A stretch of DNA of 64,000 nt. Origin: Diphasiastrum complanatum. Lineage: Eukaryota; Streptophyta; Lycopodiopsida; Lycopodiales; Lycopodiaceae. The stretch is from contig CM055113.1 of the NCBI GenBank assembly GCA_029204225.1, positions 18,753,746-18,817,745 on the forward strand, read 5' to 3'. The notes beneath the pieces are model-generated. The model saw nothing but the letters and a program-made list of their open reading frames with translations. It was not told the origin of the DNA and did no database searches. The position numbers were made by a program, and so were the translations under genes. Positions 4,757 through 62,330 of the stretch are shown here, piece after piece; within the stretch, counting starts at the first letter, position 1; the number at the start of each line of letters is the position of its first letter.

Positions 4757-4768
4757 TGGTATCAGAGC
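4757..4768 (+). other. Primer-binding site, initiator-Met tRNA type
   Basis: TGGTATCAGAGC directly after the LTR end ACA. This is the standard minus-strand priming site of plant copia and TRIM elements, and it fixes the element's orientation as plus. Confidence 0.8.
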
Positions 4769-5352
4769 TATTGTGTTTCAGGTTATTAAAGGATCAGACA
4801 TCTTTAGCAAGGATTTGGAGGAGTTACCAATGCTAGAGCATGTTAGATTGATTTCTACTCAAAAATCAGCATTTTTGCATGTGTAGAATTGATCTTTTGT
4901 AGGTCAAAACTCAATATAGGGTTATATACTTGATCAATTCTGATTTCACACCTGGTTCACTGGAATTAGCCAGTTTGTGGTACACTAGGAAGGTATCATT
5001 GGAGGCTACAAGAAGATATATCAAGTTTCTAGAAACTGCATGTAGAATTTGAGATATTCAATTTTTTGTGATTATGTCAAAACCCTAATTATGATTGGAT
5101 CTCTGTTTTGTGAGGCTATTGAACTTCATTTGAGTGTGTTTCAATCTTAGTAAGTGACAAGAATAATTAGGTTGAGGATAGATCATAGGTTGTTCAAGAT
5201 TTGACTATTCTATGTGTTGTTTTTCTAGTTAGAAGTGCTAGAAGAGATTTGAGAAGTTCCATATCTTTGTGATTTCTTCTTAAGTCCATTTGTTGACATT
5301 CAAGAGAGTGCTTTGTGCATTAGAACAAGTTGAAAGAGAAGATCAGGTCACA

Positions 5353-5799
<447 letters not shown>

Positions 5800-14419: not shown

Positions 14420-15345
14420 AGGAATCATGGTGAATGGCGAGGATCAGAATCAAGAACGTACATCATGTTGGAATGAACATGTCTCCCAGCTTCAAGAACG
14501 TACATCATTTTGGAATGAACATGTCTCCCAGCTTCATGTCCTTGAATGCTTCGCGTACCAGCACCAAAGCTGGAGTGTATAGGCGCAGTGACTCGTTCAG
14601 GATCATTCCTACCTGCAGCAACAATTTCATGAAGATTTATCAGTTTATAAGAGACTGTTTCCTGCCTTCTTCCTGAGAATATTAGTGCAAAGATTTGATC
14701 AACAACTGGATTGAATATTTCCTTCATGTCTTTCTCATCTAAATCCATTTCATCATATGAATGCGCAGGGGAGATAAGTTGGTGTCTGCAATCAGATTCT
14801 TTCCATGCCTCAACAAGCTTTGATGGCAAATCGATGTTAAACGAACAGCTTGAACCGTCAAACTCGTGCTTATAATAGCCCCAATTTTTCAATATGTTCA
14901 GCTTTTCAGCTGGATACTCTTTGGCGAACGGTCTGGAGCAGCTAATTTTTCTGGACAGAAACTCAAAGAATGCATCGTCGACATAGCTACCTCCAAATAA
15001 TCCTCCAGTGCTTCTGGAAATCTCTCGCACCTTACGTGGATAAGTCTCGATGACTATCTCATGGACGACAATGTCAACGGTTCCACCTCCACAATCTGCA
15101 ACTAAAACTTTATCACCTCTTCACAGCTTCAGAATGCTGCGCTGCTGCTGGCAATAAAGCGATGATTCCACATCCACAATCTGCAACTAAAACTTTATCA
15201 CCTCTTCACAGCTTCAGAGTGCTGCGCTGCTGTTGGCAATAAAGCGATGCAGCTTCAGGCTCTAAAATCATTAAAAGACGATAAGAACTAAACTCCATAG
15301 AGCGGCATGCTGATCCTGCCACAAGTCCTGCCATGTCTGTGCACA
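14420..15345 (-). pseudogene. HSP70-like ATPase of the HSPA12 type, pseudogene fragment
   Basis: Minus strand. The first block (about 15345-15240) has SSYRLLMILEPEAASLYCQQ, which is the HSPA12 motif before the phosphate-binding region. After a tandem duplication comes KVLVADCGGGTVDIVVHEIV (about 15110-15040), the phosphate-2 loop of the actin-like ATPase fold. REISRSTGGLFGGSYVDDAF and FFEFLSRKI follow, as in HSPA12 proteins. The frame then runs to about 14580, where it must shift to read LVREAFKDMKLGDMFIP. Two internal tandem duplications (about 80 bp at 15083-15250 and 36 bp at 14453-14528) break it. N- and C-terminal parts are missing. HSPA12 relatives are distant HSP70s of poorly known role, and I infer a dead duplicate. 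Confidence 0.75.
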
Positions 15346-15384
15346 TTTGTGCATATGCTATGGAGATGTCAGCAACGACAATCT

Positions 15385-15877
15385 TCATCAACTCAGTGGA
15401 TATTCTGATGCAAGTTGGGGAGGAGATGCAGACCATCGTAAGTCCACATCTGGATTTACATTCTTCTTCAATGGCGGTTCTATTTCGTGAAACAGTTGTA
15501 AGAAAACCTCTATCGCACTTTCTTCTACTGAAGCAGAATATATTGCTGCTTCTCAATCTATTAAGGAAGCATTTTGGTTGAGAAATTTGCTGTCAGACAT
15601 CAATCTGTATCAGTACAGCCCTATAGTTTTGTTTTGTGATAACCAAAGTGCTATTGCCTTATCGGCCAACCCTAGATTTCATTCTAGGAGTAAGCACATT
15701 GAGATAAGATATCACTACATCAGGGGCAAGGTTCTCGACAGAGAGGTGAGCTTGACGTACTGCAGAACGCAGGACATGGTTGCAGACATTTTTACGAAAG
15801 CACTCAGTGTTAATGCACACAACAGATTTTGTGCATTGCTAAGTCTGAAGATTAAGACATTCACAGATCTAGATTAA
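15385..15877 (+). pseudogene. Ty1/copia RNase H, 3' end of pol
   Basis: Begins abruptly at GYSDASWGGDADHRKSTSGF and continues with [53 protein letters not shown] and DMVADIFTKAL to a TAA at 15878. This is the complete C-terminal copia RNase H with its acidic residues, apart from a frame change near 15500. The left boundary lies 40 bp from the HSPA12-like pseudogene, so the element is 5'-truncated there. A polypurine tract and LTR follow immediately. Confidence 0.85.
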
Positions 15878-35100: not shown

Positions 35101-38100
35101 TACATTCAAATTTCAACTTTGAACTTTCAAATTTGTAAGTTAAAAGCCTCAACTTTCAGATTTCAACTTATTTGACTCTTGAAAGTTGAGTCTAGACTCT
35201 TTGGTGTTCAGTGCCGAGTGCTCTTGTTGGTAACCTAGTAGCATGAGGCCTACAAGTTACTTGATAGTTGAAATTGTTGTCGAATGTTCTAGATATGGAT
35301 GCACCATCCTATCAATGCAAGGAGGCGCCATATTGTGAATATATTGGTGTCTTCTTGCATGGGCACCATGCTTTTGAGGTCCATTAATACGTCGGAGGCA
35401 AGCTTGGCATTGGATGGCAGGAGATTGTTTGAGTACATCTCACAGGCCATTGAGAGGTCAAAAAGAAAATGTTGTCCAGGTATGCACTTTCAAGTTTCAA
35501 CATCAAACTTTGAAGTTACATTGTGAATCATGATTATTGTTTTGAACGTTACAATTTGCATTTGTCATTTACAGTTTTTTGTGAATTTCGACGTTCGTTG
35601 TGACTTGTTTAAACTTTGCTGATTCCGAAATGCTCAATGCTGAATGTCCCTGAGTTATGATTCAGCCTTTGTCAAATTCCAATGCAGGTTGTCACGGACA
35701 ACGCATCCAATTGTGTTGCCATGGGGAAGCTCGTGCATGAGAGTAGTCATACATATGACTCATGAGGCCTCAGGCTTGAGCCTGGAAGCTACGCTTGAAA
35801 CTCTTGTTATTTACGCTTTTACTTTAAAGAATAAAGTTTAAACTTTTGACTCTTAAATTGTAATTTGTGATCTGTTAGTGGTCAGTACATTATTGTACAG
35901 TTTATAACTTCACTATTCATAACTTTTGGAAGTTCTTGGATGTCTAAGACTGTGATGTGTTGCGTGCATTGTAATTTGTGCATGTGTCATGACTCATGAG
36001 TCAACTTTATAGTATTCATGTAGTTACTACTATTATCTATGGAATGTACCATATCTTATAAGTTACGATGAATCGTGATTCATTTAAATTGTAAATTGTA
36101 ATCCATATTTCAATTTTACGGTCACTGGTAAGTCGGAATTGGTCACGACTCACTACGTGTGAACTCTAATGCACTTGCCACTTAGCACTGTGAACTAAGA
36201 ACTTTCAACTCAGTCTTGTAATATGTATGGAATATGGCGGTATCTAGTTTCTACAAGTGTATACAGTATGATCACCTATTTAGTACATGATAGGGCCAAA
36301 TTTAGGGCTAGGAATAAGATAAGGACTAGGCAATGGGCATTGGGCATAAAAGTGTGATTGTTGACATGTTATCGAGTACCTACTACCATGTGGCAATGGG
36401 CATGCAAACTCTCACGAGCTAAACTTCTTGCTCTCTTACAGGACTGTAAAGATCATGATGGTCGTGTCTTTACATACTTCCTGAAATTTGAATGCATTTG
36501 AGCATGATTTCTCAAGGGCCATAAGCTTTGTGCTGGCTTGAACACATTCTCACAACCTAATAACCTATCCATGACAATATCAATAATAGACTGAGGAAAC
36601 CGACCATACATAGTTTCTCCTCTTGAAATTGCATTCTCTAGAGCATTCTCATGAAATTGGATGTATCTACTTGGTACTAGTCTTTCTATGACATGTCTAA
36701 ACTGTAGGAAATCAAAGTGCCAAGATCCTTTTAACATTCAATCTCCATATACAAGAAGAAGAAGAAGAGGGAGAGGGTTAGGCGCCCTCAAGGAGAGAGA
36801 AAGTAGTAGCAATGCTTGAAAGGGAATGAATTACAAATGAACAAAGAGTACATATAAATAGGCCTTCCAAGGGCCTAGACTCTTCCAAACTCTAAGTTCT
36901 AGAACCTTCCAAGACCCACTACTAATTATAGGGTACCCCCAAATGTCAAGGTAGGGTCCCTTAACATAATTAAACTTTACTTGGACCCACGAATTACTAC
37001 TAGACCAAAATTGGGTCCAACTCAACTAAAACTGACTTAACATGGTCTAAATAATAAACCTAACCCATGGTTACACAAGTCTCGGCCTTTTGGGTCAAAG
37101 TAACCTATGGGAAACTAACATTATCATTTATTACTTCTAACACCCTCCTTAAATGATAATGTAAAAAACATAACATGACATGAAGTATGAAAAATTGCAA
37201 CAAAAATGCAAAGTGTTGCATGCTGCCCAAAACTCCATGTAGCCGAAAAAGAAAAGATATAGCTTGCTGTCCAAGCTTAATGCCGCCAAAAAAAAAACTT
37301 CAGCTTGAAGTAGTCGAAGTAGCCGAAATCTCAGCCCCAATCATGCCCGATGTAGAAGAGATGTAGAATACGAAGTGCGGTAGCATCAAGTCGAAGAGTG
37401 AAGACAAGCATGCTCCATCCAAAGTAGGTAACCAAAAAACTAGCCACAAGCCGAAATATGGATTTGCAATATGGTTCCCACATGATTCCATAAGTCTTCT
37501 TAGCACAAGAAACATAAAGAAGAGTACGATACTCTTTTACCATCACATCCTCCCGAATCTTACTATCAATGATCTGCTCACCAACACTAGGTAAGACAAC
37601 ACCGTCATCATAAGAAGTAAGCATCAAAACATGAAAATCAGCATAAGGTACTGATTTTGGTGAGGCATGTGTGTTTCCTCGAAGGTAAAAAGATGCTTTG
37701 CTATCCCGCAAAGACTCGGACAACCAACAAGAGGCTGTAGCAGGCTGTCCAACAGCCACAAAATCACCAACACTTTGCTATCCAAAGTGTTCCAAATGTG
37801 GACCTTGTTGTCCAAAAACCTTCCGCAGGCCGTTCTCGATGCATAATAGGATGCTCACGATGTAACATAGGCTGAAAATGATCAATAAACCATGGCTAAA
37901 TCTAGTGTCCACCATCTTCAAGAAAAAAACGAACAGCTTGCCACTTTGAACACCCAAAAAATCCAACAACACGCCACTTTGAACCAATGTACTAATTGAC
38001 ATGATTTTTTCCCCTCCTCCATTAGTACAAAATGGCTTCAAAGAATGCTTGATTTCAGCCTTTTCCAAAACATTATCTTGAGAAGCTTGCTCATAAAGTT

Positions 38101-41100
38101 CTTCACTAATGCATCCATCATTTGCAACAAATGGCTCAAGAGAAGAAGAATGCTTTACCATACCAACATTCCAATGCAAAGTTGTACTTGTAGAAAGACA
38201 ATGATCAAACTTTGCATGACTTTGCTCTTCTGCCTTCAAAGAGGATGAAGTAGAGGGACGAAAGCATGATGATGAATCTTTTATTTGGTACATCTTTAAA
38301 AGTGTTTCCCAAGCACTTTTAGAGGTCTTGCAAAATCTCAAATGATATAAGATAGATCTTGACGTTGATGCAAAATCTCAGCATTCAACTCCATGAAGCT
38401 CTACCACTGAGCTATCCGCCCCGTTTGATAGTTCTCTCTAGAGTGTGGATTGATATTTCAACACTTACCACAAGAAACATAAAGAAGAGTATGATACTCT
38501 TTTACCATCACATCCTCCCGAATCTTACTATCAACGATCTGCTCACCAACACTAGGTAAGACAACATCGTCATCATAAGAAGTAAGCATCAAAACAGGAA
38601 AATTAGCATAAGGTACTAATTTTGGTGAAGAATGCTTGATTTCAGCCTTTTCCAAAACATTAACTTGAGAAGCTTGCTCATAAATTTCTTCACTAATGCA
38701 TCCATCATTTGCAAGAAATGGCTCAAGAGAAGAAAAATGCTCTACCATACCAACATTCTTGTACTTGTAGAAAGACAATGATCAAACTTTGCATGCCTTT
38801 GCTCTTCTACCTTCAAAGAGGATGAAGAAAAGAGGAGAAAGCATGATGTTTCCCAAGCACTTTTAAAGGTCTTGCAAAATCTCAATTGATATAAGATATA
38901 TCTTGTTACCGATAAAATCTTGATCATCACATCGATGCAAAACCTCAGCTTGCAACTCCAAGAAGAATAGTTGGTGCCATCCAACATATCTTCGCTCGAA
39001 CAAGTACGAATTGCACCCAAATCTCTTGCCATAAGAACCAGCCAAGAAGATAAATTTTTTCAAACCCTAAATGTGCCCTAAAAGACGCAAAAACCAGCAA
39101 GTATCAAATCTGAAAAATTAGCACCGGAATGTGTCGAAACCACACATTAGATGGATGTGGGAACTCGCCCTCCTACAAGCCTTGTGTGCTGAAACTTTCA
39201 GCCTGAAATTGCATTACAAACTCAAAAAACCAGCAAGCAAAGAATTAGGTTAGCCTCCAAAAAAGCTTTTTCAGGAACCCTTCTTTTTTGCCAAAAAGTG
39301 TGAACAGTACACACACAGATAGGGCTGTTGCAAACACCCTACAAATGGTAATATGCTGTCCAATTTTCAGCCTCGGAATGTGATCGGATCATCACAAAAA
39401 ATTAACACCTTCTTCCACACCTAGAAACAAGCATAGTTGCAGCGCGATTCCTGAATCGCGATTCAAAATCGCGATCAGAATCGCGATTCCGATTCGCGAT
39501 TCGGGATTTTCCCAGAATCGTGTAGAATCGATTTTTTTTTTTTTTTTTGAAATTTTTTTAGGCAATATGGGTATCAGATGAAAGCTCTGATCGAGGGGAT
39601 TATGATTGTGTAGTTTGCCGACTGTTTCGGGTGCGAAACACCAAAAAGTGTGTTTTCACTCGGGGAGTTGGAAGGCCAAATCATGAAGACGCCTTACCGT
39701 CGGGGCCGGGGTCTACCGGCAGCCCCCGGACCCCGCCGTGTCCCCCGAACCCCCTAGAGCTTCTTGCTATATAGACATAGTAGATAGAAATGCCACCGCC
39801 CCCCTGTAGATAAAAATGGGGTCCAAATGCGCGCCGAGAAGGGCCCAATATTTATGCCCCCAACTGTATGTACATTGCACTCACATCTCCAGTGAACCAA
39901 TTGCAAAAGTGATCATCATCCATACAGTTGATAGTCCAAACTGTAGCATTAACATTTACTGAAAACCAGAGCAAATGACAACCGGATAGCTACTGAAAAT
40001 AAGATTTGTTTGTGCCTCATCTACTGCACTTATGAGAGGCAAAACGCTGGTTTGACCATTGATCCCCAAAAAAAATTACAGCAATAAGCTATTTTTCCAG
40101 AAAAAAAAAAAATTTTTTTTTTTTTGCGATTCTGGGTCGCGAATCGCGACCCGCGAATCGCAGACCCAGCAAATCGAGATTCGCTGCAACTATGGAAACA
40201 AGCAAAAAGAAGCGGATCTTCACTTTGTAAAATCAGCAAGGGTGCTGATTTTTCAGCCAAATCAAACGATAAAAATTGCTTGTAGATGGGCGCCCTCCTG
40301 CAACGAAGCAAATCTGAAAAATAGGGCAGCAGCGGACCAACGAAAGTAGGATAAACCTACACGGATGTGGGCGACCTAAAAGCAGCCCCGAAGAAGATAA
40401 TTAATGGCGCCTTCTTGCAACCTGAAAAATCAGCAAACAACCAACTGATTTTTGGGCGCCCAAAATCCTATTATCTCCTTTGATGTGTGGCGCCCTCCTG
40501 CAAAACGGAAAAGAGTCAAAACTGAACAGATCTTCACTCCAAAAAATCAGCAAAGGTGCTGAATTTTTGTGATCCCTAAGTGAAGACGATCTCTTTTGGT
40601 AGGGCGCCCTAAATCAAGCATAGAAGATCCATGGCTCTGATACCATCATGTAGGAAATCAAAGTGCCAAGATCCTTCTAACATTCAATCTCCATATACAA
40701 GAAGAAGAAGAAGAGGGAGAGAGTTAGGCGCCCTCAAGGAGAGAGAAAGTAGTAGCATTGCTTGAAAGGTAATGAATTACAAATGAACAATGAGTACATA
40801 TAAATAGGCCTTCCAAGGGCCTAGACTCTTCCAAACTCTAAGTTCTAGAACCTTCCAAACCCACTACTAATTATAGGGCACTCCCAAAAGTCAAAATAGG
40901 GTCCCTTGACATAATTAGACTTTACTTGGACCCACGAGTTACCACTAGACCAAAATTGGGTCCAACTTAACTAAAACTATCTTAACATGGTCTAAATAAT
41001 AGACCTAACCCATGGTTACACAAGTCTCGACCTTTTGGGTCAAAGTAACCTATGGGAAACTAACATTATCATTTATTATTTCTAACACTCTCCCTTTGTA

Positions 41101-48592: not shown

Positions 48593-51500
48593 GAAGAAGA
48601 AGAAGAGTGCCTACTCCTGAAACTTGAACTGATTCAGTTTGAATAAAGTTGAATAAAATGAACTAATCTATGATCTATCTATAGTTGTTGATGGCACAGC
48701 CCTAATGGAATGCCCCGTCATCCACCTGGCAGTTGCCACGTGGAGATAAGGGATTGGACTTGAAATGTGTAATGGATAAGACTCCTCAACCAAATCTGAT
48801 GAATCGTTATTTGGTAACCCTTGAATAATCGATGTAGTCTGCTCGACATTGTGTCGACAGTACGTGTGTTTTTGCAGACGGTCTCGAATACTTCGACACT
48901 ATCTGGACAATGCGAGTAAAACTGCAAAGTAGATCCACATTACAAAATGATTGAAGAATGAAATCCAACACTCCCCCTCAATGTGAACTCATAAAAATCG
49001 AGGCATTAAGTTGAGCATACTGCTAAACTTAGAATGATTGTCGAACGATAATGCTTTAATAAATATATCCGCTGTCATGAAATTTGTTCTACAAAAGATT
49101 AGAATGACCTCCCTTTCGAGTACTTTGTCTCTGACGAAATGATACTTTATCTCAATGTGCTTGCTCTGGGAATGATACCTGGGTAATTAACAGATAAAGC
49201 AATTCTACTCTGATTGTCGCAAAATACAGAAGTTGCTTGTAGCTAACTAAGATTGATGTTTGCGACAATAGACGCCTTAACCAGATAGCTTCTTTTGCAG
49301 AATGTGCGGCAATGTATTTGGCGCTATCAAAGATAATGCAGTCAAATTCTGCGTCTTCCTAATCCAAGACCTTGAAGAAGATTAACATGGTCATTCGAAT
49401 CATTATTCGAGTTTCCACCATAACAAATGCAATGATTTTGTGTCGACGGTAGATATCGAAGAACTCCAAGTAGAGCTTTCCAATGAATGAAACCTAGATT
49501 CAACTTGTATTGGCTTAGTGTACTAACTAAATAAGCAATGTCAGGTCTAGTACACATCATGGCGTACATGAGACACCCAATAATAGAATGATAAGGATAT
49601 TGCTTATGTTGGAATATCAATCCATACTCTAGAGAGAACTGTCAAACAGGGCGGATAGCTCAGTGGTAGAGCATCCCATCCGGTATGAGGGAGGTCCTGG
49701 GTTCGAATCCTAGTCTGTCCATCCATATTATGATTTATGAATTTCTAACATGGTATCAGAGCCAATTTAGACCTAACAGTTCATGGTGTCAAAGCCATGG
49801 TTAGGTGGCCCAAGTTGTGGGGCGGGTGACAGCTAGGACCCCAACCAAGTGTGGCTTGAGGGGGGGTGTTGGAATATCAATCCACAACACTCTAGAGAGA
49901 ACTATCAAACAGGGCGGATAGCTAAGTGGTAGAGCATCCCATCCGGTATGAGGGAGGTCCTAGGTTTGAATCCTAGTCTGTCCATCATATTATGATTTAT
50001 GGATTTCTAACAGTTTTTGTTCGACATCAAATGACTGGGGACACTAGTCCTTCGAATATTTTGAACCTAGATCCACTGGAGTTTTGGTTGGTTTACAGTT
50101 GTCCATTTGATGTTTGAATAACAGGTTGTTGGAATATCAATCCACACTCTAGAGAGAACTATCAAACAGGGCGGATAGCTCAGTGCTAGAGCATCCCATC
50201 CGGTACGAGGGAGGTCCTGGGTTCGAATCCTAGTCTGTCCATCCATATTATGATTTATGGATTTCTAACATGGTAACAGTTCATGGTGACGAAGAACATT
50301 GTTCATCATCTGCTGAAGGTCGCGGGAGCATTTGTCAATCCAAACGGCAAGTCCAGAAACTCATAATGGCCATACCTTGTCCTAAACCCGGTTTTTTCAA
50401 CGTCCTCACTCTTAATACAAATTTAATGATACCCTGATCTCAAATCGACTTTGGTGAAGTACTATGCACCATGTAATCGATCAATTAGTTCATCCATTCG
50501 AGGTAAGGGATATCTATTTTTAATAGTTAACTTGTTTAATTTTTTTAGTCTACACAAAGACGAACTCCTCCGTCCTTTTTATTAACTAATAAAATTGGCG
50601 CCCCCCAAGGGGACTTACTAGGCCTAACATGGCCCATCTTTAAATATTGTTGCAGTTGCCTAAAAACTTCGTCTTCTTCCTTTGTGCTCATCCTATAAGG
50701 GTAGGAAGATATAGGTGAGCTTTCGAGAAGAAGCTCTATGCAACCCCGAAAGGGGGGAAGACTGGTCTGGGAAAACGTCACTAAATTCAGGCCTAAGTTT
50801 CTAAAGGTTTCACCTTGTTGTGATTGCTCTACCCTTAGATTATTAGTCATTAGTGCAAACTGCATGTTACACCTGTATAAATTGCATTCTTCCTGATAGC
50901 TAAAATCCTTTAACGAACATAAATAAGAATCACAATCCAGAGCATTCATGCATTCAATTGTTTCCAAAGGAGAAAGCATATAAGGAGAAGAAATATCCAC
51001 ATTTCCATAAGTTCTATGAGTGAGCCATTATGCAAGAACGACAAACTGTGAGTTACATAATTTTTCTTTAGCGACTCATTCCCGCTCTCATAAAACCACT
51101 CTTTACCAAGTACAATGTCTACTTTGTCCAAATTCATTACATGGAGATCTAATCTATCTTTATGTCCCTGAATTTGCAAAGGAAGACATAAGACTATCCG
51201 GTCCCATACTTGGCTCTCTACTCCCGTGGCCAGCTTTATCATGTACCGATGGTCACTTTGCCTTGTTTCCACCTTCAGCTTCTGCAACAATTTAGAGTTA
51301 ATAAAATTATGTGTAGAGCCATCATCGAACAAAACTGTTACGGCTTGGACATCTACAGTCCCATTCACCCGAATAACATCGCGAGGGCTAAAAACTGTCG
51401 TTAAAACAACAATGCTCACAACTAGAATTCTCAGCAAAGGTTAAATCAATGCTAAAAATGCTAGAGTTACTTGGCATCTTAAAAGAGGCCCTTTAACATT

Positions 51501-54002: not shown

Positions 54003-57000
54003 AGCACAGTTTCAAAAGACTGTTTTACAGCATAATGTAAAGATGAGTAGCAGGACACTACAGAACCAAGCCTTATGATCAAAGATGACAAATCAGGAAA
54101 AAAACCAACCCATTTTCTTGTGTTCTTGTGACGCTCTCATTGAAATGGGGTCTCTTTGTATACGACTATCAGTGCCCATCATGACACGATACTCTTCCTG
54201 TGTTTGGAGAGAAAGCATGTCCATCAGCTGAACTGCAACATCTTCTCCTGTTTCTTCATAATGCTTCTGAACAGCCTCTAAAGAGGTATCCCTCTTCCAT
54301 GCCCTTACCCATTCCTTATAGTATGCCATAGAACCAATCTCTTTCCTTCTCTTCTCCTCTAGCTCAATCCTGTCTTTCAGCTAATTATCATCATCGCATA
54401 GAACCTTCAGCATTGCAGACTGACGTTATCCAATAAGCTCAAAGGTGCAGACTTCACAGCATTATCAACTATTGGCTGACTTATTTTCTACTGAAAGGTT
54501 AAACAACACAGCAATATGTTTTGAAAAATAACCATGTGTAATAAATACGCAACCAAAATAGACCTTGCTGGAAACGCGTTGGAATGTAACTACTATAAGA
54601 GCCAAAAAGATACATGATCCAGTAAGCACTAATTGAATAAGAACAATGAAGATGATTCATAGCCAGGTTTGACATATACTTTTGAGCCCTAAATAACACA
54701 AACACATTAACGTGTTTCATTCTCAAAAATTTATAAATAAGTTCAGACACAGATACATCCCTCACTGATAGTGCAAAGGTTCCATTCAGCTTCCATTCAT
54801 CAGTGTTATAGAATTGAAAATAGAGATAGAAAGGATCGTTAAATCGAGGTTTACCAACCTAGGAATCCTCGATCGTCTTCTACAACTCAAAATAGATTAA
54901 AATCAGCAACATGCAATCAACATGCAAGCAAATACAGTGACATGCAATCAACATGCAAGCAATCTGAAGAATTCTAGAGGCATGCATGCAACATGCATGG
55001 ACTAGTACTTGCACATGCAAACGGAAATTGATAGCAAATTGTAATTTTGTCGACATGCAATGAATAGATTTTATTTTCGAAATAATCAGATCTGCTGGCT
55101 ATGGAAGGCAGCAAGCAAGATGAAGAAGAGGATGCGAGCAGAAATTTGCATGAAACTTCCGTCAGAAACTTGCTACACAAACTAAAATGATAGCATATGC
55201 TATAAGGAGCATTCTAACGTCATTAATCCTGGAAATTGCTCCTCCAATTGGGTCGATTGGATCACGAATGCTTGTTGTCCATGAATTTCCAGCAAGAAGA
55301 TTAGCAAGAATACAACGCAACAAATCAGATCCAACAAGACACCAATCTAGGATAGCATTACACTAGCATTGATTAGCAAGAGATTATACCACAAAAAGCA
55401 AATCACAAGAGCATATGAAAAAGAAATCTCTCTCTCTCCAAAAGTGCGCCCATCTAGGAAGAGGAGGTATCATTTACAGATTGGAAACAAATGATATGTG
55501 ATGTACATGGCTTCCAAGTGTCAAAAGTAGGTGAAATAGGTGTCCCACATGCTAAGCATGCACTTTCCCTCTTCATGCAATGATTTGCCTTGGTCCACAA
55601 GTTTCTTATATAGGAAAAATGCGCCCTCCTACAACATAAGAAAATTCATATAGTTCCAACATATAGTTGGTAGCATGTAAAATTGCCCCCCTAGGGTCCC
55701 ATGTACAACTTATGGGCCTACTCAAGGTTTTAAAACCTTTACAATAAATATTTATAATGTTTACAAACTTGGTAAGCCTATTTAAACTTTGAGAGAATAC
55801 AACACAATCAAAATTGCGTGGCGCTAAAATACATGGTGAAATTGATCAAACTTAAACCATAACAGCTCCCTCCTAAGTTTGGTCATTTTTACATACTCCA
55901 AGCTTTTTCCTATGACGATGAAATAATTTTGCATGGAGTGGCTTTGTAAGAATATCTGCAACCATGTTACTTGAGTCAATGAAGATAGGGGAGATAATCT
56001 TCTTCTTGACTAGATCTCTCAAATGATGATACTTGATATGAATATGTTTGGTCCTCCTATGAAATACGGCATCTTTTGAAAGTACAATAGCAGAAGTGTT
56101 GTCAATAAATAAAGAACTTGGGCCTTCATCAAGTTGATGTAGATGTTCAAGCATGAATCGCAGCCAAACTACTTCATTAGAAACTCTTGAGGCTGCGATA
56201 TATTCCGCCTCGCAAGAGGATTGAGCAACGAAAGATTGCTTCTTGCATATCCATGTGATGGCTGCCCCTGAAAGTATACTACATCCTCTTGTAATGCTTT
56301 TATAATCACTGGCATCACTGTATGAAGCAAGTGATAGACCATCTTGTTTAGAGAAAACAATTCCATAATCGGAAGTAGCTTTCAAATATTGTAAAACATA
56401 TTTAGCATGCTTCCAATGAATAACACCAGGATTAGTAGCAAACTGACTAAGAGTATGAACTGCATAGGCAATATCAGGCCGTGGCCAAGTAGTGAGATAC
56501 ATTAAAGATCCAATCAAATTGTGATAAGGAATCTTGGACATTTCTTCATGTTCCTCTTTAGTCTTCGCTCCATCTTCTGTGGATAATTTGACTCCAGGTA
56601 GCATAGGAATGTCTTTGCCTTTGCACTCCAGCATATTGTAGTCCTTCAGGATCTTCAAAATATAATATTGTTGATGAAGTGCAATGGTGCCTTTTACCCT
56701 GTCATGATGAATTTGAATTCCAAGGCAAAATTTTGCCTCTCCAACGTCCGAAACATCAAAGATAGAGCCAAGTAACTTCTTACAATGATTGATGAAAGGA
56801 GTAGAATTTCCTATCAACAATGAATCATCGACATAGACTGTCAACAATACATAATACTCATTCACCCTTTTGAAATAAACATTACCAACAGGAATGAATG
56901 GTATAAACCCCAATGCTCTTAGGACTTCATCTATCTTCTTATTCCATTGCCTAGCGGATTGCTTTAAACCATATATACTTTTTTAAAGTAAGCAAACCCA

Positions 57001-60000
57001 ACTAGGATGATGTCTACTCACATAGCCTAATGGCTGCTTCATAAAAATAGTTTCATCAAGTGTGCCATATAAATATGTTGTTTTCTCATCTATTTGATGC
57101 ATTTCCAGATCATAATAAGCGGCCAAAGCAACTAGCAAACGTATGCTAGCTTGCTTTACAACGGGAGAAAACGTATCAAAATAGTCAACTCCAAACTTTT
57201 GAGAATAACCTTTTGCTACAAGGCGAGCCTTGAAGTGTATAATATCACCTTCAGGTGAAAATTCCAGCTTATAGAGCCATTTGCAATCTATAGCCTTTCT
57301 TCCTGGTGGTAAAGGCTGCAGCTTCCAAACTTGGTGTCGATACATGGACTCCATCTCTTCATCCATAGATTTCGTTCTTTACTTTGCATTGCTTCTTCAT
57401 AAGTTGATGGAGCTTCCACAAAATATCCAAATTCTCTTTGGAAGCGAACTGGCTCTCGTCTTTCTCTCCTTGGCCGTGATGCAGCAGCTTCCTCATCTTC
57501 GAATTCTTCTTCTTCCTCACCTACATGTTCAATGATTTCTTCTTCTTCTTCTTCTTCTTCATCAAGAAGAAGTTCATGCATAGTTGGAACAATAGGCTGC
57601 TCTTCTGGAGTAGCATGAAACAGTTTGAAAACATCATATCCTAGAACATCTGCTTCTTCCTTTTTATGGAATATAGGATCATCTATGAACTTACATCTCT
57701 AGAAAAATGAAATTTCTTTGTAGTTGGAATGTAGATCTTATAATAATGTGAGATTGCATCATATCCAACTAGAATTCCTGGCATAGCAGTATTGGCTAGC
57801 ATATTGCGTTTAACTTTAGGAACAAATAAATATGCTAGACATCCAAAAATTCTAGCATGTGTTAACTTGGGCTTTTTCCCAGTCCAACATTCATAAGGAG
57901 TTTTCTCCTTATCTAGAGATTGTAAAGTACGATTCTGCAAGTAATTGGCAGTATTAACTGCTTCCGCCCAAAATTTAGCAGGTAACTTTGCATGAATCAT
58001 CATGCAGTGTGCTGCCTCAACAAGAGTTCGATTCCGCCGTTCTGCGACACCATTGTGCTGAGGGGTGTACACAGCCGTAAACTGATGTAGAATGTTATTG
58101 CTGGTACAAAACTCCTGAAATTCTGCAGGAATATATTCACCACCACGATCTGAACGTAGTTGTCTAACTGTCTTTAAAGTCTTAGAGTGCACAAAACTGA
58201 GAAATTCTTTAAATTTCGAAAGAACGTCACTTTTATTAACAATAAAATAAACCATTGCCGTCGATGAATGTGACAAAATAACGTGCACTTCCAATAGAGT
58301 TAACAGGCAAAGGTCCACAAACATCTGAGTGAACTAATTCAAGAAGTTCTTTAGATCTATGGCCCTCCTTATTGAATGGAGAGCGAGTCATCTTGCCCAC
58401 CATGCAAAAGTCACATGGATGATATGAAGTGGGAATATTGATGTCAAAATCAACCCCTTCAAACAACTTTCTCTTTGTTGCATCAAGAATGCTTCGCATG
58501 CTCATGTGATAGAGCCTAGCATGCCATAATGCATGCATTTTGTCTTCGACGACTGAAACTTCGTCACATGCAATAAGAACTTTTGCATGATACAGGTTCT
58601 CCCTTCGTAAGCCTGTTGCAAGCTGCTTTCCACTTTTTGTGTCCATTAACCTGCAATCATTGTCAAGAAACAAAACTTTGATGCCCACATCTATCATGCG
58701 GGCTACTGACAACAAGTCCTTTTGCATGGTTGGTACATGCAATACATTTCGAAGAAATTTAGAACCTTCAATTGTGAGTAAACTCAAGCTTCCTATTCCT
58801 GAAACATCATGAGTATTATCAGTAGAATTAAAACAATCTTCTACACAAACAAAAGCAGCAGCTAGAGTGTTTTCCTCTTTGCTTGAGTTAGAAGAAAGTT
58901 GTTCCTCTTGACAAACATTGGCTTTACTATTGGTAGGCCTAGAATAGCATTTGAAAGATGAATGACCAATTTTACCACAATGTCTACAAGGTACTCTAGG
59001 ATTAGCCCAACATTTATCGAGAGTATGTCTTGGCTTTTTACAATAGTTGCAAAAAGATTTCTTTGACTTAGGTTCAGATGATTCCACTTTGGAATCTTTA
59101 TTGTTTGGATCTTGCATGCTAGTAGCTTGGAACTGGTTTCCGGTCCTCTTGCCTTGCCCTTTCCTTTCTTCGCATATAAAGCTTTAGCTCCTCCTTGAGA
59201 AGGTGAACTTCCTCGCCGCATGAGATACTCCTCTCGAAGGCTTTGAATGGCCTCTTCAAAGGATTTACCTGGGTAATAATCACTTTAGCTTTTGAATCTG
59301 CATGCAACCAGGCGTGAAGATCTTTTAAATCTTCTTCATAAGCTGTTGTATTTATTACATCAGGTACATGCGGTTTGGGAATGGTCCCATCAACATAAGG
59401 CCACAGCTTCTCAGCCTGCAAGATCAGTCGAGTCTTTGATCTCCATGCAGGGTAGTTGGATCCATCTAGGATCGTTATTTTCGCATGAAAAGAAGAAATA
59501 GAAGCCATAGCTCTGATACCATTAAATCAGCAACATGCAATCAACATGCGACATATAAAGAGCATTCTAACATCATTAATCCTGGAAATTGCTCCTCCAA
59601 TTGGGTCAATTGGATCACGAATGCTTGTTGTCCATGAATTCCCAACAAGAAGAACTTTACATTAGCAAGAATACAACGCAATAAATCAGATCCAACAAGA
59701 CACCAATCTAGGATGTGAGCCCATCTAGGAGGAGGAGGTATCATTTATAGATTGGAAACAAATGATATGTGATGTACATGGCTTCTAAGTGTCAAAAGTA
59801 GGTGAAATAGGTGTCCCACATGCTAAGCATGCACTTTCCCTCTTCATGCAATGATTTGCCTTGGTCCACAAGCTTCCTATATAGGAATAATGCGCCCTCC
59901 TACAACATAAGAAAATCCATATAGTTCCAACATATAGTTGATAGCAAGTAAAATTGCCCCCCTAGGGTCCCATGTACAACTTATGGGCCTACTCAAGGTT

Positions 60001-61636
60001 TTGAAACCTTTACAATAAATTTTTATAATGTTTACAAACTTGGTAAGCCTATTTAAACTTTGAGAGAATAGAACGTGTGCAAGCGGCCTAGATACTTTTA
60101 TTTTAGTATATATTTCATGTTGAAGAAGTCTCAAACTTCAGGACCTTCAAACCACGAAGAAAAATTGATAGTTCAATACCAAATTGCATATAGATGCTTT
60201 GGCTCAAGGGTTTCAACCAGCAAATTGATATGTTTTGCCAAACTAACCTTTCTTCATAAAATACTCGCTTTCGAGCACGATGGATCAATTCTTCGCACAG
60301 TGTGGGTTTGTCACCAAACAGCTTAATTTGCCCAATAGCTTGCATTGCAGCTGCCATTGCCTGAAAGTTTAGAAGCAGAGACATTCAGCAATCACTCATC
60401 TTGTGCCATAGCTTACATTATTTCTCACACTATAGCTTATAAACACAGCTCTTTTGTAAAGCAAGCTCATCATGGCATTAGAGGTTTTGAACTAACATAT
60501 AGCACCCACATAGAACTGCTTTGAATGCTTAAATGTACGTGACATACAGAGTTTGACTAGTGCTTGGAGTCAGATTGGCAGTCTCAACAATCTGAACTAC
60601 AAGAGAAAGTGTTTCCACAAGATCTAGCAAACAAACTTACCTTGAAAACTTGTTAACTTGAAAACATCACAAGAGGATATTAACAAGTAGGAATTCCTAA
60701 AACACAACAGCAATAACCACTTAGAAAAAGGAAAAACAGTGCCTTTTTGACAAGGACCAGAGGAACTTGTCTTCAAGACTGAGCAACTGGCATACATACT
60801 GCATCTTTAGTAGGTGTTCGATTTTGCCAACGAGTCCATACAGCCTCTTCAGGAGGTGGCCGCTGCCGATTCCACCAAAGCTGATCGTTAGGAAGAGGCG
60901 GAGGTGGAGGTGTTATCGGTTTCTTTCCTTTCGGATAAGCTGAAAGGGGATAACTCCCCTTGTTGTTTTTTATTTCTTCAAGAGTCATTTCTGGCTCCTC
61001 CTCTTCTTCTTCCGCATACACTACTTTTCCCTCATCGTCATCTTCCTCTTCCTCCTCTTCCTCTTCCTCTTCCTCTTCCTCTTCTTCTTCCTCCTCTTCC
61101 TCTTCAGCAATATCAGCCTCATTCAAACCAACCATTTTCTTGTCTAACTTTTGTCCATCTGAATTGGGGTTTCCTTCAGGTTCTGCATCTGTTCCTTTAG
61201 CATGCGCAACCGATGTATGAGTCGGTGATGTCTCTGTGTCTCGCTTCCGTCTACGTCCACGTCTTCGTGGTTGAGCAAGTGAATCAGTCTCAGAATTGTG
61301 ACCCTTTGGTTGGTCAGAAACATGAGAAGATGAGCTCCTCCGAATCGTGTCTTCGTCCCAAAACGAAGTATTAGACAACGCATTTCTGTGCCCATATGCA
61401 GGTGCTGGCTCTTTTGTGATGGGGTCAATGTAGCTCGTATAGGGAGGATCATCAACATATGCATACAAAAAATCATCCTCAACCCCACCACTACCACTAC
61501 ATCTAACAATTCCTTTGGAAGTCTTGAAATTTCTCAAAATGTGAGATTTTGCAGAATGGTGTGTATTGGTGTTGCCTACATGGAAGAGATTATCCTTCAA
61601 AATCTGCAGCGGAAAGGTCCCATAATTTATTTGCAT
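32088..61636 (-). CDS. HMR: HEMERA / pTAC12 (PAP5), seven exons, introns full of transposons
   Basis: HEMERA (pTAC12, PAP5) is an accessory subunit of the plastid-encoded RNA polymerase, needed for chloroplast transcription. A nuclear pool takes part in phytochrome signalling and PIF turnover. Coding exons, in order, are 61636-60800, 60360-60248, 54369-54110, 46524-46403, 46173-46102, 32336-32259 and 32150-32088. They sum to 1545 nt, 514 residues plus TGA, and every junction is in phase. Landmarks: basic N-terminus (1-46, putative plastid transit peptide), [14 protein letters not shown] (59-72), basic RRRGRRRKR (124-132, possible NLS), a 21-Glu run (178-198), WWN..RP and W.RWQ (255-271), [13 protein letters not shown] (288-300), [16 protein letters not shown] (331-346), [12 protein letters not shown] (380-391), GGDPVYPTI (406-414), [12 protein letters not shown] (425-436) and an acidic C-terminus. 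These are family hallmarks as I know them. Introns are 439, 5878, 7585, 229, 13765 and 108 bp. Confidence 0.93.
32259..32336 (-). CDS. HMR: HMR exon 6
   Basis: 78 nt, residues 469-494, phase 0 on both sides. It encodes a short acidic segment ending [11 protein letters not shown], matching the family pattern MDEA---A-DIG-+E. Acceptor TTGGCAG. The donor is GAG/GCAAGT, a GC-AG intron with otherwise perfect donor consensus. The assignment rests on the motif, the phase and the neighbouring acidic exon, because the exon is short. Confidence 0.8.
34261..34537. repeat. Direct repeat pair (about 77-90 bp) separated by ~110 bp
   Basis: The segment containing CTCTCCTCTCAAAGTATAAT and GGTGTCACCATCCACAAAGC occurs at 34261-34337 and again at 34448-34537. 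It lies immediately left of the hAT copy 1, so one copy may mark its truncation point. Confidence 0.75.
34560..35780 (+). pseudogene. hAT transposase copy 1 (BED finger and DUF659), decayed
   Basis: Plus strand. The ATG at 34622 starts [14 protein letters not shown]... [16 protein letters not shown], a BED-type zinc-finger start, which stops at 34744. After a deletion the DUF659 region follows: [36 protein letters not shown] and [12 protein letters not shown] (34800-35045). Then, across an intron-like gap, come [17 protein letters not shown] (35310-35360) and [15 protein letters not shown] (35685-35730), a diagnostic hAT motif. Stops interrupt it and the dimerisation domain is not seen. It is about 80% similar by eye to copy 2 at 44011-45175. 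Confidence 0.8.
36453..36702 (-). pseudogene. Unrecognised open frame cut by an LTR
   Basis: Minus frame with ordinary composition ([48 protein letters not shown]). It runs into the LTR at 36703, so the element inserted into it. I do not recognise the protein. Confidence 0.25.
36703..37142 (-). repeat. 3' LTR of the gag-only element
   Basis: 440 bp, nearly identical to 40649-41087. It is preceded on the minus strand by a polypurine tract. Confidence 0.85.
37331..39063 (-). pseudogene. Copia-type gag relic with internal duplication
   Basis: Minus strand. [17 protein letters not shown] (about 38990-38940) is the classical copia Gag start, and [18 protein letters not shown] (38340-38287) continues it. 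Further left the frame is unlike known Gag. A block of about 140 bp (37503-37640) is repeated at 38467-38606, and another of about 130 bp (38039-38165) at 38625-38755. There is no protease, integrase or RT. Confidence 0.6.
38398..38463 (-). repeat. Truncated LTR of the tRNA-like TRIM family
   Basis: On the minus strand it begins TGTTGAAATATCAATCC and runs through the AGAGAGAACTATCAAAC leader into the first 24 nt of the tRNA-like part (acceptor strand and D arm with A box TAGCTCAGTGG). It then breaks off at 38398. It is a fourth copy of the LTR described at 49607-50270, in an independent location. Its outer edge lies 3 bp from the start of a duplicated block. Confidence 0.85.
39432..40194. mobile_element. 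763-bp hAT-type MITE with 8-bp target-site duplication
   Basis: Perfect 13-bp terminal inverted repeats CATAGTTGCAGCG (39432-39444) and CGCTGCAACTATG (40182-40194) are flanked by the 8-bp direct repeat GAAACAAG (39424-39431 and 40195-40202). An 8-bp duplication with a CA...TG end is diagnostic of hAT. Both ends are packed with the palindromic word AATCGCGATT and its variants (39438-39512, 40124-40180). The interior is non-coding, with a poly-T tract and a GC-rich block at 39690-39760. Confidence 0.9.
40633..40645 (-). other. Primer-binding site (initiator-Met tRNA)
   Basis: TGGTATCAGAGCC on the minus strand, three bases from the 5' LTR end. It fixes the direction of the element. Confidence 0.85.
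40649..41087 (-). repeat. 5' LTR of the gag-only element
   Basis: 439 bp, next to the primer-binding site at 40633-40645. Beyond its outer edge the sequence CTCTCCCTTT resembles the complement of a polypurine tract, as if a further element copy once lay to the right. Confidence 0.85.
41880..43284 (+). pseudogene. Ty3/gypsy gag-protease relic
   Basis: Plus strand, three frames. A Gag core ([20 protein letters not shown], then [18 protein letters not shown]) is followed by a zinc knuckle [14 protein letters not shown] near 42570, whose last Cys is replaced by Tyr. Next come a protease-like [18 protein letters not shown] (42800-42855) and [20 protein letters not shown] (42990-43050). The rest of pol is missing: the sequence is interrupted at 43284 by the hAT copy that starts CAGTGTTTC. 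Confidence 0.8.
43285..45175 (+). mobile_element. hAT transposon copy 2 with 5' end and transposase (3' part missing)
   Basis: CAGTG at 43285 is the consensus hAT terminus, and the following 130 bp repeat GTTTCGAAAC/CGTTTCGAAAC as subterminal motifs. GA and GT microsatellites follow (43465-43860). The transposase begins at ATG 44011. After a frameshift it reads [20 protein letters not shown] and [20 protein letters not shown], a BED finger, up to a GGCACAG/GTGATT donor near 44255. The next exon (from 44494) includes [20 protein letters not shown] and [12 protein letters not shown] (44700-44925). The exon at 45105 has [17 protein letters not shown], where it ends. The BED-DUF659-hAT order is that of plant hAT transposases. 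Confidence 0.8.
43463..43860. repeat. GA and GT microsatellite block
   Basis: Alternating GA and GT tracts with a repeated unit GAAAGAGAGGGAGTGTTTGT (about three copies near 43518-43630). They give spurious His/Thr-rich and Cys/Val-rich frames on the two strands. Confidence 0.9.
45176..46101. other. HMR intron 5 edge, unassigned insertion
   Basis: The hAT coding sequence stops abruptly at 45175 and is followed by non-coding sequence of unknown type that includes a TTCACGTGTGTG word. Short frames such as 45514-45807 plus show no motif. Confidence 0.35.
46102..46173 (-). CDS. HMR: HMR exon 5
   Basis: 72 nt, residues 445-468 ([19 protein letters not shown]...). Phase 0 on both sides: acceptor TTTGTAG, donor GAG/GTATAT. 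The sequence G+(I/M)I--E-L--IL-KE is the conserved segment after the PTP motif of pTAC12. Confidence 0.9.
46403..46524 (-). CDS. HMR: HMR exon 4
   Basis: 122 nt, residues 404-444. Acceptor GATAG, donor GCG/GTAAAA. It contains [16 protein letters not shown] and [19 protein letters not shown], the signature of the pTAC12 C-terminal half. Confidence 0.93.
47860..48070 (+). pseudogene. Possible LINE ORF2 fragment
   Basis: Plus-strand reading [20 protein letters not shown] with an adjacent frame [19 protein letters not shown] resembles the linker after the endonuclease of plant LINEs (basic helix, then an S-GAFW-like step). It is short and frame-shifted, so weakly supported. Confidence 0.3.
48138..48970 (-). 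repeat. Copia 3' LTR
   Basis: 833 bp with matching ends TGTTGG...CCAACA (read on the minus strand). It directly follows a polypurine tract (TGAGGGGGAG) at 48971-48980. It contains an AG microsatellite at 48559-48590. It belongs to the copia RT-RNase H relic to its right. Confidence 0.75.
49607..49750 (+). repeat. TRIM 5' LTR
   Basis: 144 bp, TG...CA ends, differing from the third LTR at 50127-50270 at five positions by eye. It carries intact A and B boxes. Confidence 0.9.
49649..49721 (+). ncRNA. tRNA-like sequence with Pol III A and B boxes (LTR 1)
   Basis: 73 nt. Acceptor strands GGGCGGA and TCTGTCC pair with two G-T wobbles and are followed by A as discriminator. D arm GCTC/GAGC is perfect. 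T arm CTGGG-TTCGAAT-CCTAG has four normal pairs and one G-T. A box TAGCTCAGTGG (49656-49666) and B box GGTTCGAATCC (49700-49710) fit the plant Pol III consensus. The anticodon arm is imperfect and the loop lacks T33, so this is not a functional tRNA. A CAA motif precedes it at the position favoured for plant Pol III starts. Resembles tRNA-Ala in its 5' half. Confidence 0.85.
49751..49763 (+). other. TRIM primer-binding site
   Basis: TGGTATCAGAGCC immediately after the LTR end ACA, complementary to the 3' end of initiator-Met tRNA. Confidence 0.9.
49867..50012 (+). repeat. TRIM 3' LTR
   Basis: 146 bp. Compared with LTR 1 it has three extra bases near the start, one missing base near the end, an A-box C to A change (TAGCTAAGTGG) and a B-box C to T change (GGTTTGAATCC). 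It is followed at 50014-50018 by TTTTT. Confidence 0.9.
49912..49984 (+). ncRNA. tRNA-like sequence (LTR 2), boxes mutated
   Basis: Same 73-nt module as at 49649. One substitution in each internal promoter box suggests it is weaker or inactive. A compensating G to A in the T stem is also present. Confidence 0.75.
50127..50290 (+). repeat. Third TRIM LTR with remnant of the internal region
   Basis: LTR 50127-50270 (144 bp) followed by TGGTAACAGTTCATGGTG. Relative to the intact element, 20 bp are missing between two TA words, which removes most of the primer-binding site. At about 50288 it passes into gypsy RT sequence. It is a separate, truncated insertion 115 bp from the intact element. Confidence 0.85.
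50169..50241 (+). ncRNA. tRNA-like sequence (LTR 3)
   Basis: 73-nt module with B box GGTTCGAATCC intact and the last base of the A box changed (TAGCTCAGTGC). Otherwise it is nearly identical to LTR 1. Confidence 0.8.
50290..52195 (-). pseudogene. Ty3/gypsy gag-protease-RT relic
   Basis: Minus strand, right to left. Gag ([38 protein letters not shown]; 52190-51900) leads to a zinc knuckle [14 protein letters not shown] (about 51555-51514, perfect CX2CX4HX4C). Next are the protease [18 protein letters not shown] (51340-51285) and a linker with [12 protein letters not shown] starts at [38 protein letters not shown] and GGVRLCVD, then a [12 protein letters not shown]-like segment with the first catalytic Asp, and [11 protein letters not shown]. 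It ends before the Y-x-DD box, where the truncated TRIM LTR begins. Stops break the later part. Confidence 0.85.
52195..52575 (+). pseudogene. Ty1/copia integrase core fragment
   Basis: Plus strand. [20 protein letters not shown] and FVTFIDDYT carry the two catalytic Asp residues. [17 protein letters not shown] and [18 protein letters not shown] carry the catalytic Glu. One stop occurs after FIDDYT. It is isolated, lies in opposite orientation to the neighbouring gypsy relic and ends near 52575. Confidence 0.85.
52745..53030. other. GC-rich island with GCCAGC/GCTGGC repeats
   Basis: Unusually GC-rich for this window, with many inverted and direct GCCAGC, CTGGCAGG and GCTAGCGAG words and a run of ten C. 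No credible coding frame. Possibly an LTR or a transposon end. Confidence 0.5.
53090..53530 (+). pseudogene. LINE-type ORF2 C-terminal zinc-finger (zf-RVT) relic
   Basis: Plus strand across frames: [36 protein letters not shown]-like sequence, then [20 protein letters not shown] with CPIY (about 53305-53375). This gives the C-x2-C...H-x4-C pattern found at the end of non-LTR retrotransposon RTs. [20 protein letters not shown] follows. Stops are frequent, and RT itself is missing. Confidence 0.55.
53955..53999. repeat. (CT)n microsatellite
   Basis: About 22 CT units in HMR intron 3, just downstream of exon 3. Confidence 0.95.
54110..54369 (-). CDS. HMR: HMR exon 3
   Basis: 260 nt, completing Arg317 and coding 318-403 plus one base. 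I chose the acceptor GACAG/G because an upstream AG would bring a stop into frame. It contains a charged helix ([12 protein letters not shown]) and then the most conserved stretch [32 protein letters not shown] and [15 protein letters not shown]. It ends ATGG/GTTGGT. Confidence 0.93.
54896..55864 (-). repeat. Copia 3' LTR (full length, ~969 bp)
   Basis: Begins TGTTATGGTTTAAG at 55864 after the polypurine tract and ends ...GTTGCTGATTTTAAT at 54896. It contains a block of CATGCAATCAACATGCAAGC repeats (54910-54960) missing from the other LTR. Confidence 0.8.
55873..59508 (-). pseudogene. Ty1/copia gag-pol, nearly complete but frame-broken
   Basis: Minus strand, from [20 protein letters not shown] (59508). 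Two zinc knuckles follow ([28 protein letters not shown]; 59050-58940). The protease active-site DSG segment is absent, the frame passing directly to [12 protein letters not shown]. Pre-integrase ([18 protein letters not shown]), integrase ([37 protein letters not shown]), a Glu-rich linker (57540-57590), RT ([20 protein letters not shown]) and RNase H ([37 protein letters not shown]) follow, to a stop at 55873. Frameshifts or stops occur near 59200, 58240, 57680, 57370 and 56990. The long intact 346-codon 3' frame implies a fairly recent insertion. Confidence 0.9.
59510..59521 (-). other. Primer-binding site of the intron 2 copia
   Basis: TGGTATCAGAGC on the minus strand, immediately after the 5' LTR and two bases before the Gag start codon. 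Confidence 0.85.
59522..60072 (-). repeat. Copia 5' LTR (truncated)
   Basis: Matches the 3' LTR at 54896-55864 except for two internal deletions and a missing outer end. A 12-bp primer-binding site abuts it. Confidence 0.8.
60248..60360 (-). CDS. HMR: HMR exon 2
   Basis: 113 nt, residues 280-316 plus two bases of Arg317. It is preceded by TTTCAG and ends AAAG/GTTAGT. It carries [13 protein letters not shown] and [11 protein letters not shown], which continue the WWN/W.RWQ block of exon 1 in the order typical of pTAC12. Confidence 0.93.
60800..61636 (-). CDS. HMR: HMR exon 1
   Basis: Codes for residues 1-279. The first in-frame ATG is at 61636-61634 ([13 protein letters not shown]), and an in-frame TAA lies about 30 nt upstream. 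The N-terminal 46 residues are basic, with few acids, as expected of a plastid transit peptide, ending near IVRCSGSGG. The exon contains the conserved AYVDDPP block, the basic RRRGRRRKR cluster, the poly-Glu run and a second Glu block. It ends in the WWN/W.RWQ block. It ends after GCA at a textbook donor GTATGT. Confidence 0.93.
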
Positions 61637-62330
61637 ACACCCCAAATGCGATGTGTAGAAATCTTAGCTTTGAGCCTAAACCACAAACCGTAGAAAACCC
61701 TAAATGGAAGAAATTACCCTTTAAAATCTGCACAAAGTTTGATTAGGTCCCAAAATTTGGTTTCATACGCCCCAATTGCAAAAACATTAGCACTGACCTT
61801 AAACTCTTGCCTACGCCCCAATAGCATTGAACCTAAACCCTAATCTCTAAACGCTACTGAATCGAAAAGTTACAGCTAGGTTGAGAATCGCTAAACCCTA
61901 CATGGGGTAGTCCTCAATCTAGTGCTTGTCTGAAAAATATTGTTTATTTCCCATGTGCACATGTGCACATGGGATTTCAAACACAACACCGTTGTCCTTC
62001 AACCTCAAACGCGTTCCATAGTCCGTAAAAATGGAAACTATGGCACTCAATAAAGTCTATGCTAAAAAAGTACACAGCTCTCCGGGAAATTTTGCTTACA
62101 CGTTTTATCAAACGCTGTGCATGCTTTCCTGAAACATGGCATGCATTTCGTCCATGAAACTGCGTTGAACAGAAAGCATCTGCTTGCCAATACAAAAGGT
62201 GAGTTAAATCCTAGCATAACTTTTGCAAAATGCAATCTTTCGGAGATAAGGGTGAATAAAAACTCTTCAAAACTGCAGCAATTACTAAGAAGCTCATTTC
62301 AGACATGAACAAGTAGAATTCAAACCTGGA
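61637..62330 (-). promoter_or_regulatory. Probable 5' UTR and promoter region of HMR
   Basis: Non-coding on the minus strand, with an in-frame stop just upstream of the HMR start. It contains the E-box palindrome and a phrase duplicated in part from exon 1 (GGAAGAAATTACCCTTTAAAATCTGC near 61707 resembles GGAAGAGATTATCCTTCAAAATCTGC near 61582). The transcription start is not identifiable. Confidence 0.4.
61949..61974. promoter_or_regulatory. 26-bp perfect palindrome of CACATG/CATGTG E-boxes
   Basis: A perfect inverted repeat centred at 61961/61962, about 310 bp upstream of the HMR ATG. It holds four overlapping hexamers CATGTG/CACATG (61952, 61958, 61960, 61966). CACATG is the PBE-type E-box that bHLH factors of the PIF class can bind. 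The presence of the palindrome is seen directly. A regulatory role is inferred only from its position. Confidence 0.5.

Follow-up and report, generated by a model that had tools for sequence, protein, structure and literature searches.

The 64-kb stretch of DNA analysed here (the window) contains a 406-bp element at positions 49607-50012, read directly as LTR1, interior and LTR2, which on the strength of its sequence is quite probably a Helenus-type TRIM (TRIMp3), that is, a non-autonomous land-plant LTR retrotransposon whose LTR carries a tRNA-derived type-2 Pol III promoter. We would classify it as a new family of the Helenus type from a land plant, assigned by its layout and compared with the Selaginella moellendorffii family Helenus-1_SMo by description, and it is probably the second plant Helenus on record within the accessible literature searched. 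A preliminary description of this DNA had advanced much of this reading, and its interpretation is partly supported overall.

Anatomy, copies and insertion sites

With two LTRs, a length below 1000 bp and no coding capacity, the element has the build of a TRIM. The preliminary description had outlined a 406-bp TRIM with LTRs of 144 and 146 bp, a primer-binding site (PBS), a polypurine tract (PPT) and a 116-bp interior, and this is borne out by the coordinates (Table 1) and by the 93.2 % identity of LTR1 and LTR2, which are separated by 6 substitutions and 2 indels (JC distance of 0.043). The core of the PBS, TGGTATCAGAGC(C), begins at 49751, and we take the PBS to be of the initiator-Met type.

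Table 1. Features of the element, its copies and its immediate flanks (window coordinates)
Feature	Position	Strand	Details
Possible 5′ target site duplication	49602..49606	.	GCTTA
LTR1 (5′ LTR)	49607..49750	+	144 bp, TG...CA
CAA motif	49643..49645	+	4-6 nt upstream of LTR1 module; likely start region
tRNA-like module of LTR1	49649..49721	+	73 nt; ARAGORN Thr-GGT; RF00005 49.8 bits, E 1.1e-7
A box of LTR1	49656..49666	+	TAGCTCAGTGG
B box of LTR1	49700..49710	+	GGTTCGAATCC
Interior	49751..49866	+	116 bp; too short to hold retroelement proteins
PBS	49751..49763	+	TGGTATCAGAGCC; presumed initiator-Met type; opens interior
PPT	49858..49866	+	GAGGGGGGG; G-rich; closes interior, adjoins LTR2
LTR2 (3′ LTR)	49867..50012	+	146 bp
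tRNA-like module of LTR2	49912..49984	+	ARAGORN Thr-GGT; RF00005 46.3 bits, E 1.1e-6
Possible 3′ target site duplication	50013..50017	.	GTTTT
First run of at least four T after module start	50014..50018	+	TTTTT; flank, outside element
LTR3 (third LTR copy)	50127..50270	+	followed by short interior-like piece; 3′ end lost against gypsy fragment
tRNA-like module of LTR3	50169..50241	+	ARAGORN Thr-GGT; RF00005 46.3 bits, E 1.1e-6
Fourth LTR copy, 5′ 69 bp	38395..38463	-	A box intact; ends after D arm

Two further copies, missed by the preliminary description, are LTR3 (50127-50270), which is 96.5 % identical to LTR1 and 93.9 % identical to LTR2, and a fragment at 38463-38395. The window thereby holds three apparent insertion sites, at 49607, 50127 and 38463, with a complete element at the first only. 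Immediately 3′ of LTR3, an interior-like stretch at 50274-50294 matches the element at 19 of 21 bases.

The element appears to interrupt a copia reading frame. A single BLASTP comparison matches its left flank (49366-49605) to a copia polyprotein at 43 % identity across 82 columns (E 1e-19). When the two flanks are joined, the copia frame is restored with 2, 5 or 8 bp removed (scores of 187, 180 and 178, respectively), against scores of 165-166 for six other removal values. A 5-bp target site duplication (TSD) is suggested, with the removal of 2 bp scoring above that of 5; the presumed duplication, GCTTA/GTTTT, agrees at three of the five bases and differs at two.

A tandemly arrayed TRIM was considered for the neighbouring LTR2 and LTR3 and rejected, as the 114-bp spacer between them aligns with copia coding sequence once joined to the other flank; the 26-aa stop-free part of this spacer gave no BLASTP match to the in-window copia (best E of 0.39). 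Nor does LTR3 stand as a simple solo LTR with a TSD, given that its 5′ flank is copia-like and its 3′ flank derives from a gypsy reverse transcriptase on the minus strand. Because the interior-like stretch and then gypsy reverse transcriptase sequence follow downstream, with copia-like sequence upstream, the preferred reading of LTR3 is a truncated copy lacking a TSD. The gypsy assignment of the 3′ flank comes from RVP_2 at 50946-51440 and from a 12-residue motif that we take to be a mark of gypsy reverse transcriptases; no Pfam domains were detected in the two copia flank pieces or in the gypsy piece at 50545-51027.

Exact matches to TGGTATCAGAGC occur at four sites in the window: 49751, 4757 (+), 40645 (-) and 59521 (-). 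No autonomous partner was found within the 64 kb, the connection to other elements there being identity of the TGGTATCAGAGC PBS only. One of these sites, 40645, belongs to an LTR retroelement at 36703-41093 (-) with LTR-like repeats at 36703-37148 and 40649-41093, the interior of which is partly duplicated, the two copies being diverged and broken into pieces (37499-38271 versus 38464-38848); the TRIM LTR fragment borders the second of them. The site at 4757 falls in a region of approximately 1.4 kb (4374-5801), where two short repeats (about 4374-4758 and 5352-5801), placed as LTRs would be, probably mark another non-autonomous LTR element. A copia element at 55201-60014 (-) displays reverse transcriptase, integrase and, by eye, gag ORFs, all between repeats within 55201-55743 and 59554-60014 that are 95-96 % alike.

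Beyond retroelements, the ORF at 60773-61663 (-) has similarity to pTAC12/HEMERA chains (E 6.5e-9), pointing to a plant host; it contains a long Glu run and, judged from its sequence, may represent a single exon of a host gene that has diverged. Two ORF pieces at 14425-15592 (-) flank an 84-bp tandem duplication and resemble an HSP70-type ATPase by eye, with weak similarity to DnaK (E 0.02-0.04); the piece at 14425-15120 had no Pfam or PDB match.

The tRNA-like module and its putative promoter boxes

Rfam cmscan of the 64-kb window at the gathering cut-off and ARAGORN on the same 64 kb place tRNA at three locations only, each within LTR1, LTR2 or LTR3. RF00005 is the sole Rfam family detected at this cut-off, and 5S rRNA was not found in the window by the same scan. 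The 73-nt tRNA-like module that the preliminary description had seen in each LTR is confirmed by both programs. All three full LTRs carry the module whole, and the 69-bp fragment retains its first third along with the A box. Retention in other LTR copies had been named beforehand as a test, and since both LTRs and two other apparent insertions carry the module or its start, a one-off SINE insertion is argued against.

A related possibility is that ordinary tRNA genes, or a SINE, happen to lie between unrelated repeats, and ARAGORN does indeed call three tRNA-Thr genes here. This we regard as highly improbable, and the LTR boundaries common to the copies refute it: the modules sit at the same position in TG...CA repeats that are nearly identical, two of which enclose a PBS and a PPT, no SINE tail was seen, and the anticodon arm is faulty. 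Elements of the tRNA-derived SINE2 type have no LTRs, their tRNA head leading into a tail that is LINE-like or A/T-rich. They resemble the module in their internal A and B boxes but are LINE-mobilised and lack LTRs, PBS and PPT, whereas here the module resides inside TG...CA LTRs accompanied by both.

Counting G-U, the acceptor arm (7/7) and T arm (5/5) are fully paired in every module, and the D arm is paired at 4/4 positions in LTR1 and LTR3 and at 3/4 in LTR2, so that the paired acceptor, D and T arms of the preliminary description stand except for the D arm of LTR2. In each of the three modules an A-A mismatch interrupts the anticodon stem, and the anticodon loop reads CCGGTAT or CCGGTAC, with C at position 33, which in tRNAs is normally U (the U33 rule). 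Given this mismatch and the C in place of U33, the module looks like a promoter relic of a tRNA rather than a functional one. Fold energies offer no advantage over shuffles (z of -0.55, -0.54 and -1.03); stability was therefore rejected as support for tRNA identity, and the identification rests on the family models.

These same features bear on the idea that the module serves mainly as RNA structure rather than as a promoter, through tRNA mimicry in RNase P/RNase Z 5′ and 3′ processing, in stability or in packaging, although the two roles could coexist. The acceptor and T arms, paired throughout, are in keeping with such a role, as is the replacement of a G-U pair of LTR1 and LTR3 by A-U in LTR2. 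The shuffle-like fold energies and mismatched anticodon arm speak against it, as does the finding that the module and the PBS stretch are perfectly complementary over 4 nt at most; this also means that the module is not the source of the primer site. We accordingly judge a mainly structural role improbable, and favour the promoter reading. A separate 6-bp hairpin lies directly 3′ of the module in LTR3 (50242-50270; z of -2.0, with 6/200 shuffles folding equally well); the corresponding hairpins of LTR1 and LTR2 are shorter and weaker.

As the preliminary description had it, LTR1 carries the A box TAGCTCAGTGG and the B box GGTTCGAATCC, with CAA just upstream. LTR2 has one substitution in its A box and one in its B box (GGTTT), and LTR3 has one in its A box (TGC for TGG). 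The majority sequence of the three LTRs nevertheless retains both boxes intact, and from this the source copies probably had intact boxes as well. A regular-expression scan for A-to-B box pairs on both strands returned three places, namely LTR1, LTR3 and a poor match at 3116 (-); LTR2 is absent because of its B-box substitution.

Eight substitutions separate the three LTRs, of which five fall within the module (73 of 144 bp). None of the three private to LTR1 lies in the module, whilst all three private to LTR2 do (one per box among them, with both indels outside), as do both of those private to LTR3, one being in the A box. On this sequence comparison, the copies would seem to decay after insertion without visible constraint, the module like the remainder, as expected for non-autonomous elements.

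From the start of the LTR1 module to the last base of LTR2 (49649 to 50012), the sequence contains no TTTT. The motif is also absent from 507 of 1000 shuffles of the same sequence, so its absence is no proof of selection, even if only 69 of 638 strand-stretches of equal length in the window lack it.

Relationship to Helenus and other Pol III-type elements

The preliminary description knew of no family with this layout, a point that does not hold: in the accessible text of Kojima 2024 (PMC10886601), Helenus elements are TRIMs with tRNA-derived sequence inside their LTRs, found in fungi, animals and one plant. That paper proposes TRIMp3 as a name for Pol III-type TRIMs, placing Helenus alongside Cassandra, with Pol III transcription of Helenus unproven there. 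The present element corresponds to Helenus in being a TRIM with a tRNA-like sequence per LTR, a PBS and a PPT, and its 406 bp fall within the published range of 311-1263 bp (PMC10886601). The published boxes, TRGCY...YGG (A) and GGTTC (B), are found in LTR1 and in the three-LTR majority sequence, with LTR2 (GGTTT) and LTR3 (TGC) deviating (PMC10886601). A 5-bp TSD is reported for plant and fungal Helenus families, tRNA-Thr-like modules are known from fungal and bivalve families, and SINE2 has been proposed as donor of the module (PMC10886601).

Helenus-1_SMo, the sole plant family in that paper, has an LTR of 120 bp, an interior of 85 bp and a 5-bp TSD (PMC10886601); compared by description only, the element here differs in its LTRs of 144-146 bp, its 116-bp interior and its initiator-Met-type PBS. 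No further plant Helenus appeared among the matches listed by a search covering freely accessible articles, outside subscription journals, supplements and Repbase. The other match listed from 2024 on for 'Helenus' with 'retrotransposon' is a meeting report citing Kojima 2024 (PMC12859917). In Gao 2016, a paper about plant TRIMs, no words starting with 'tRNA' were found in the main text (PMC4717578), and no TRIM with a tRNA-like LTR was seen in the available portions of papers on Ectocarpus transposable elements (PMC12477816) and maize retroelements (PMC2774510).

Four 16-18-nt strings of the element had no match among 5.39 million papers searched, and exact element patterns had none in viral contigs (three patterns) or prokaryote contigs (two patterns); as these collections are viral, bacterial and archaeal, misses there are uninformative on plants. 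A blastn comparison of the 406 bp with 50 697 phage records matched four, at 80.3-82.8 % identity over approximately 60 nt of the module. Three of the four are annotated as tRNA-Thr (two being records of one phage) and one (H1) is without a feature, and these were rejected as relatives of the element, reflecting ordinary tRNA similarity.

The analogy with Cassandra drawn in the preliminary description is apt. Each is a plant TRIM whose LTR bears a Pol III promoter, a putative one in the present element, and the two have the PBS TGGTATCAGAGC in common (PMC7215508, PMC10853983), but the Cassandra LTR contains 5S rRNA where a tRNA is found here. The 5S sequence of Cassandra holds a terminator, and its transcript ends inside the 3′ LTR (PMC10886601, PMC7215508), whereas the LTR described here lacks a T-run terminator. 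Ajax, a nemertean TRIM (PMC10886601), likewise has a small-RNA promoter inside its LTR, but differs in using a 5S fragment and in its animal host.

Proposed transcription and its significance

Based on these features, synthesis of the genomic RNA by Pol III is plausible. The module runs in the sense direction, from PBS to PPT, as a genomic-RNA promoter requires, and CAA lies within 10 nt upstream, as it does for roughly 36-45 % of the tRNA genes of angiosperms (PMC11700998). Against this, the LTR is without a T-run terminator, unlike Cassandra and most angiosperm tRNA genes, 67-72 % of which have a downstream poly(T) (PMC11700998). Further points against the Helenus-type reading with a Pol III promoter are the five of eight substitutions that fall in the module, the imperfect TSD, the slightly higher score for a 2-bp removal and the failure to find an autonomous partner in the window.

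The missing terminator is one ground for supposing that a TRIM of the same build has its RNA made by Pol II, with the module a passenger captured from one source copy. A Pol II promoter is typical of retrotransposons, Cassandra being the exception (PMC10853983), and the module is no better conserved among the copies here. Yet the majority-sequence boxes have the exact motifs at the right spacing and in the sense direction, the module is preceded by only 42 bp of LTR1, and the LTRs of published Helenus families, not well conserved as a whole, do show conservation around the two boxes (PMC10886601). A Pol II origin of the RNA is, on balance, unlikely.

Under Pol III synthesis, TFIIIC/TFIIIB would bind the boxes in LTR1 and transcription would start near 49643-49649. 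Meeting no T4 run in the element, the polymerase would pass through the interior and LTR2 to the flanking T5 at 50014. An RNA of this kind, starting in LTR1 and retaining all of LTR2, would have an R region of approximately 100 nt common to both LTRs. Initiator-Met tRNA would prime at the PBS, the short minus-strand strong-stop cDNA could jump to LTR2 across these ~100 nt, the G-rich PPT would prime the second strand, and reverse transcriptase and integrase supplied in trans by copia or gypsy elements would complete insertion.

A bolder reading, which we consider rather unlikely, is a vascular-plant TRIM lineage that would have arisen independently of known Helenus families and dropped its Pol III terminator, such that a full-length read-through RNA driven by the tRNA-type promoter ends in flanking DNA and the LTR consists of U3 and of R extending to the LTR end, without U5. 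If true, terminator-less read-through would represent a solution to the R repeat unlike Cassandra's end inside the 3′ LTR.

For genome annotation, a second land-plant family would serve as a warning that LTRs account for some of the 'tRNA-Thr' genes called in plants. Clean boxes combined with a missing terminator would allow a Pol III role in making the genomic RNA of TRIMs that bear tRNA sequences to be tested in a plant. Finally, the published plant record, in the accessible literature searched, comprises one Helenus family, from a lycophyte; a second would indicate that tRNA-type Pol III promoters of TRIMs are not restricted to Selaginella among plants.
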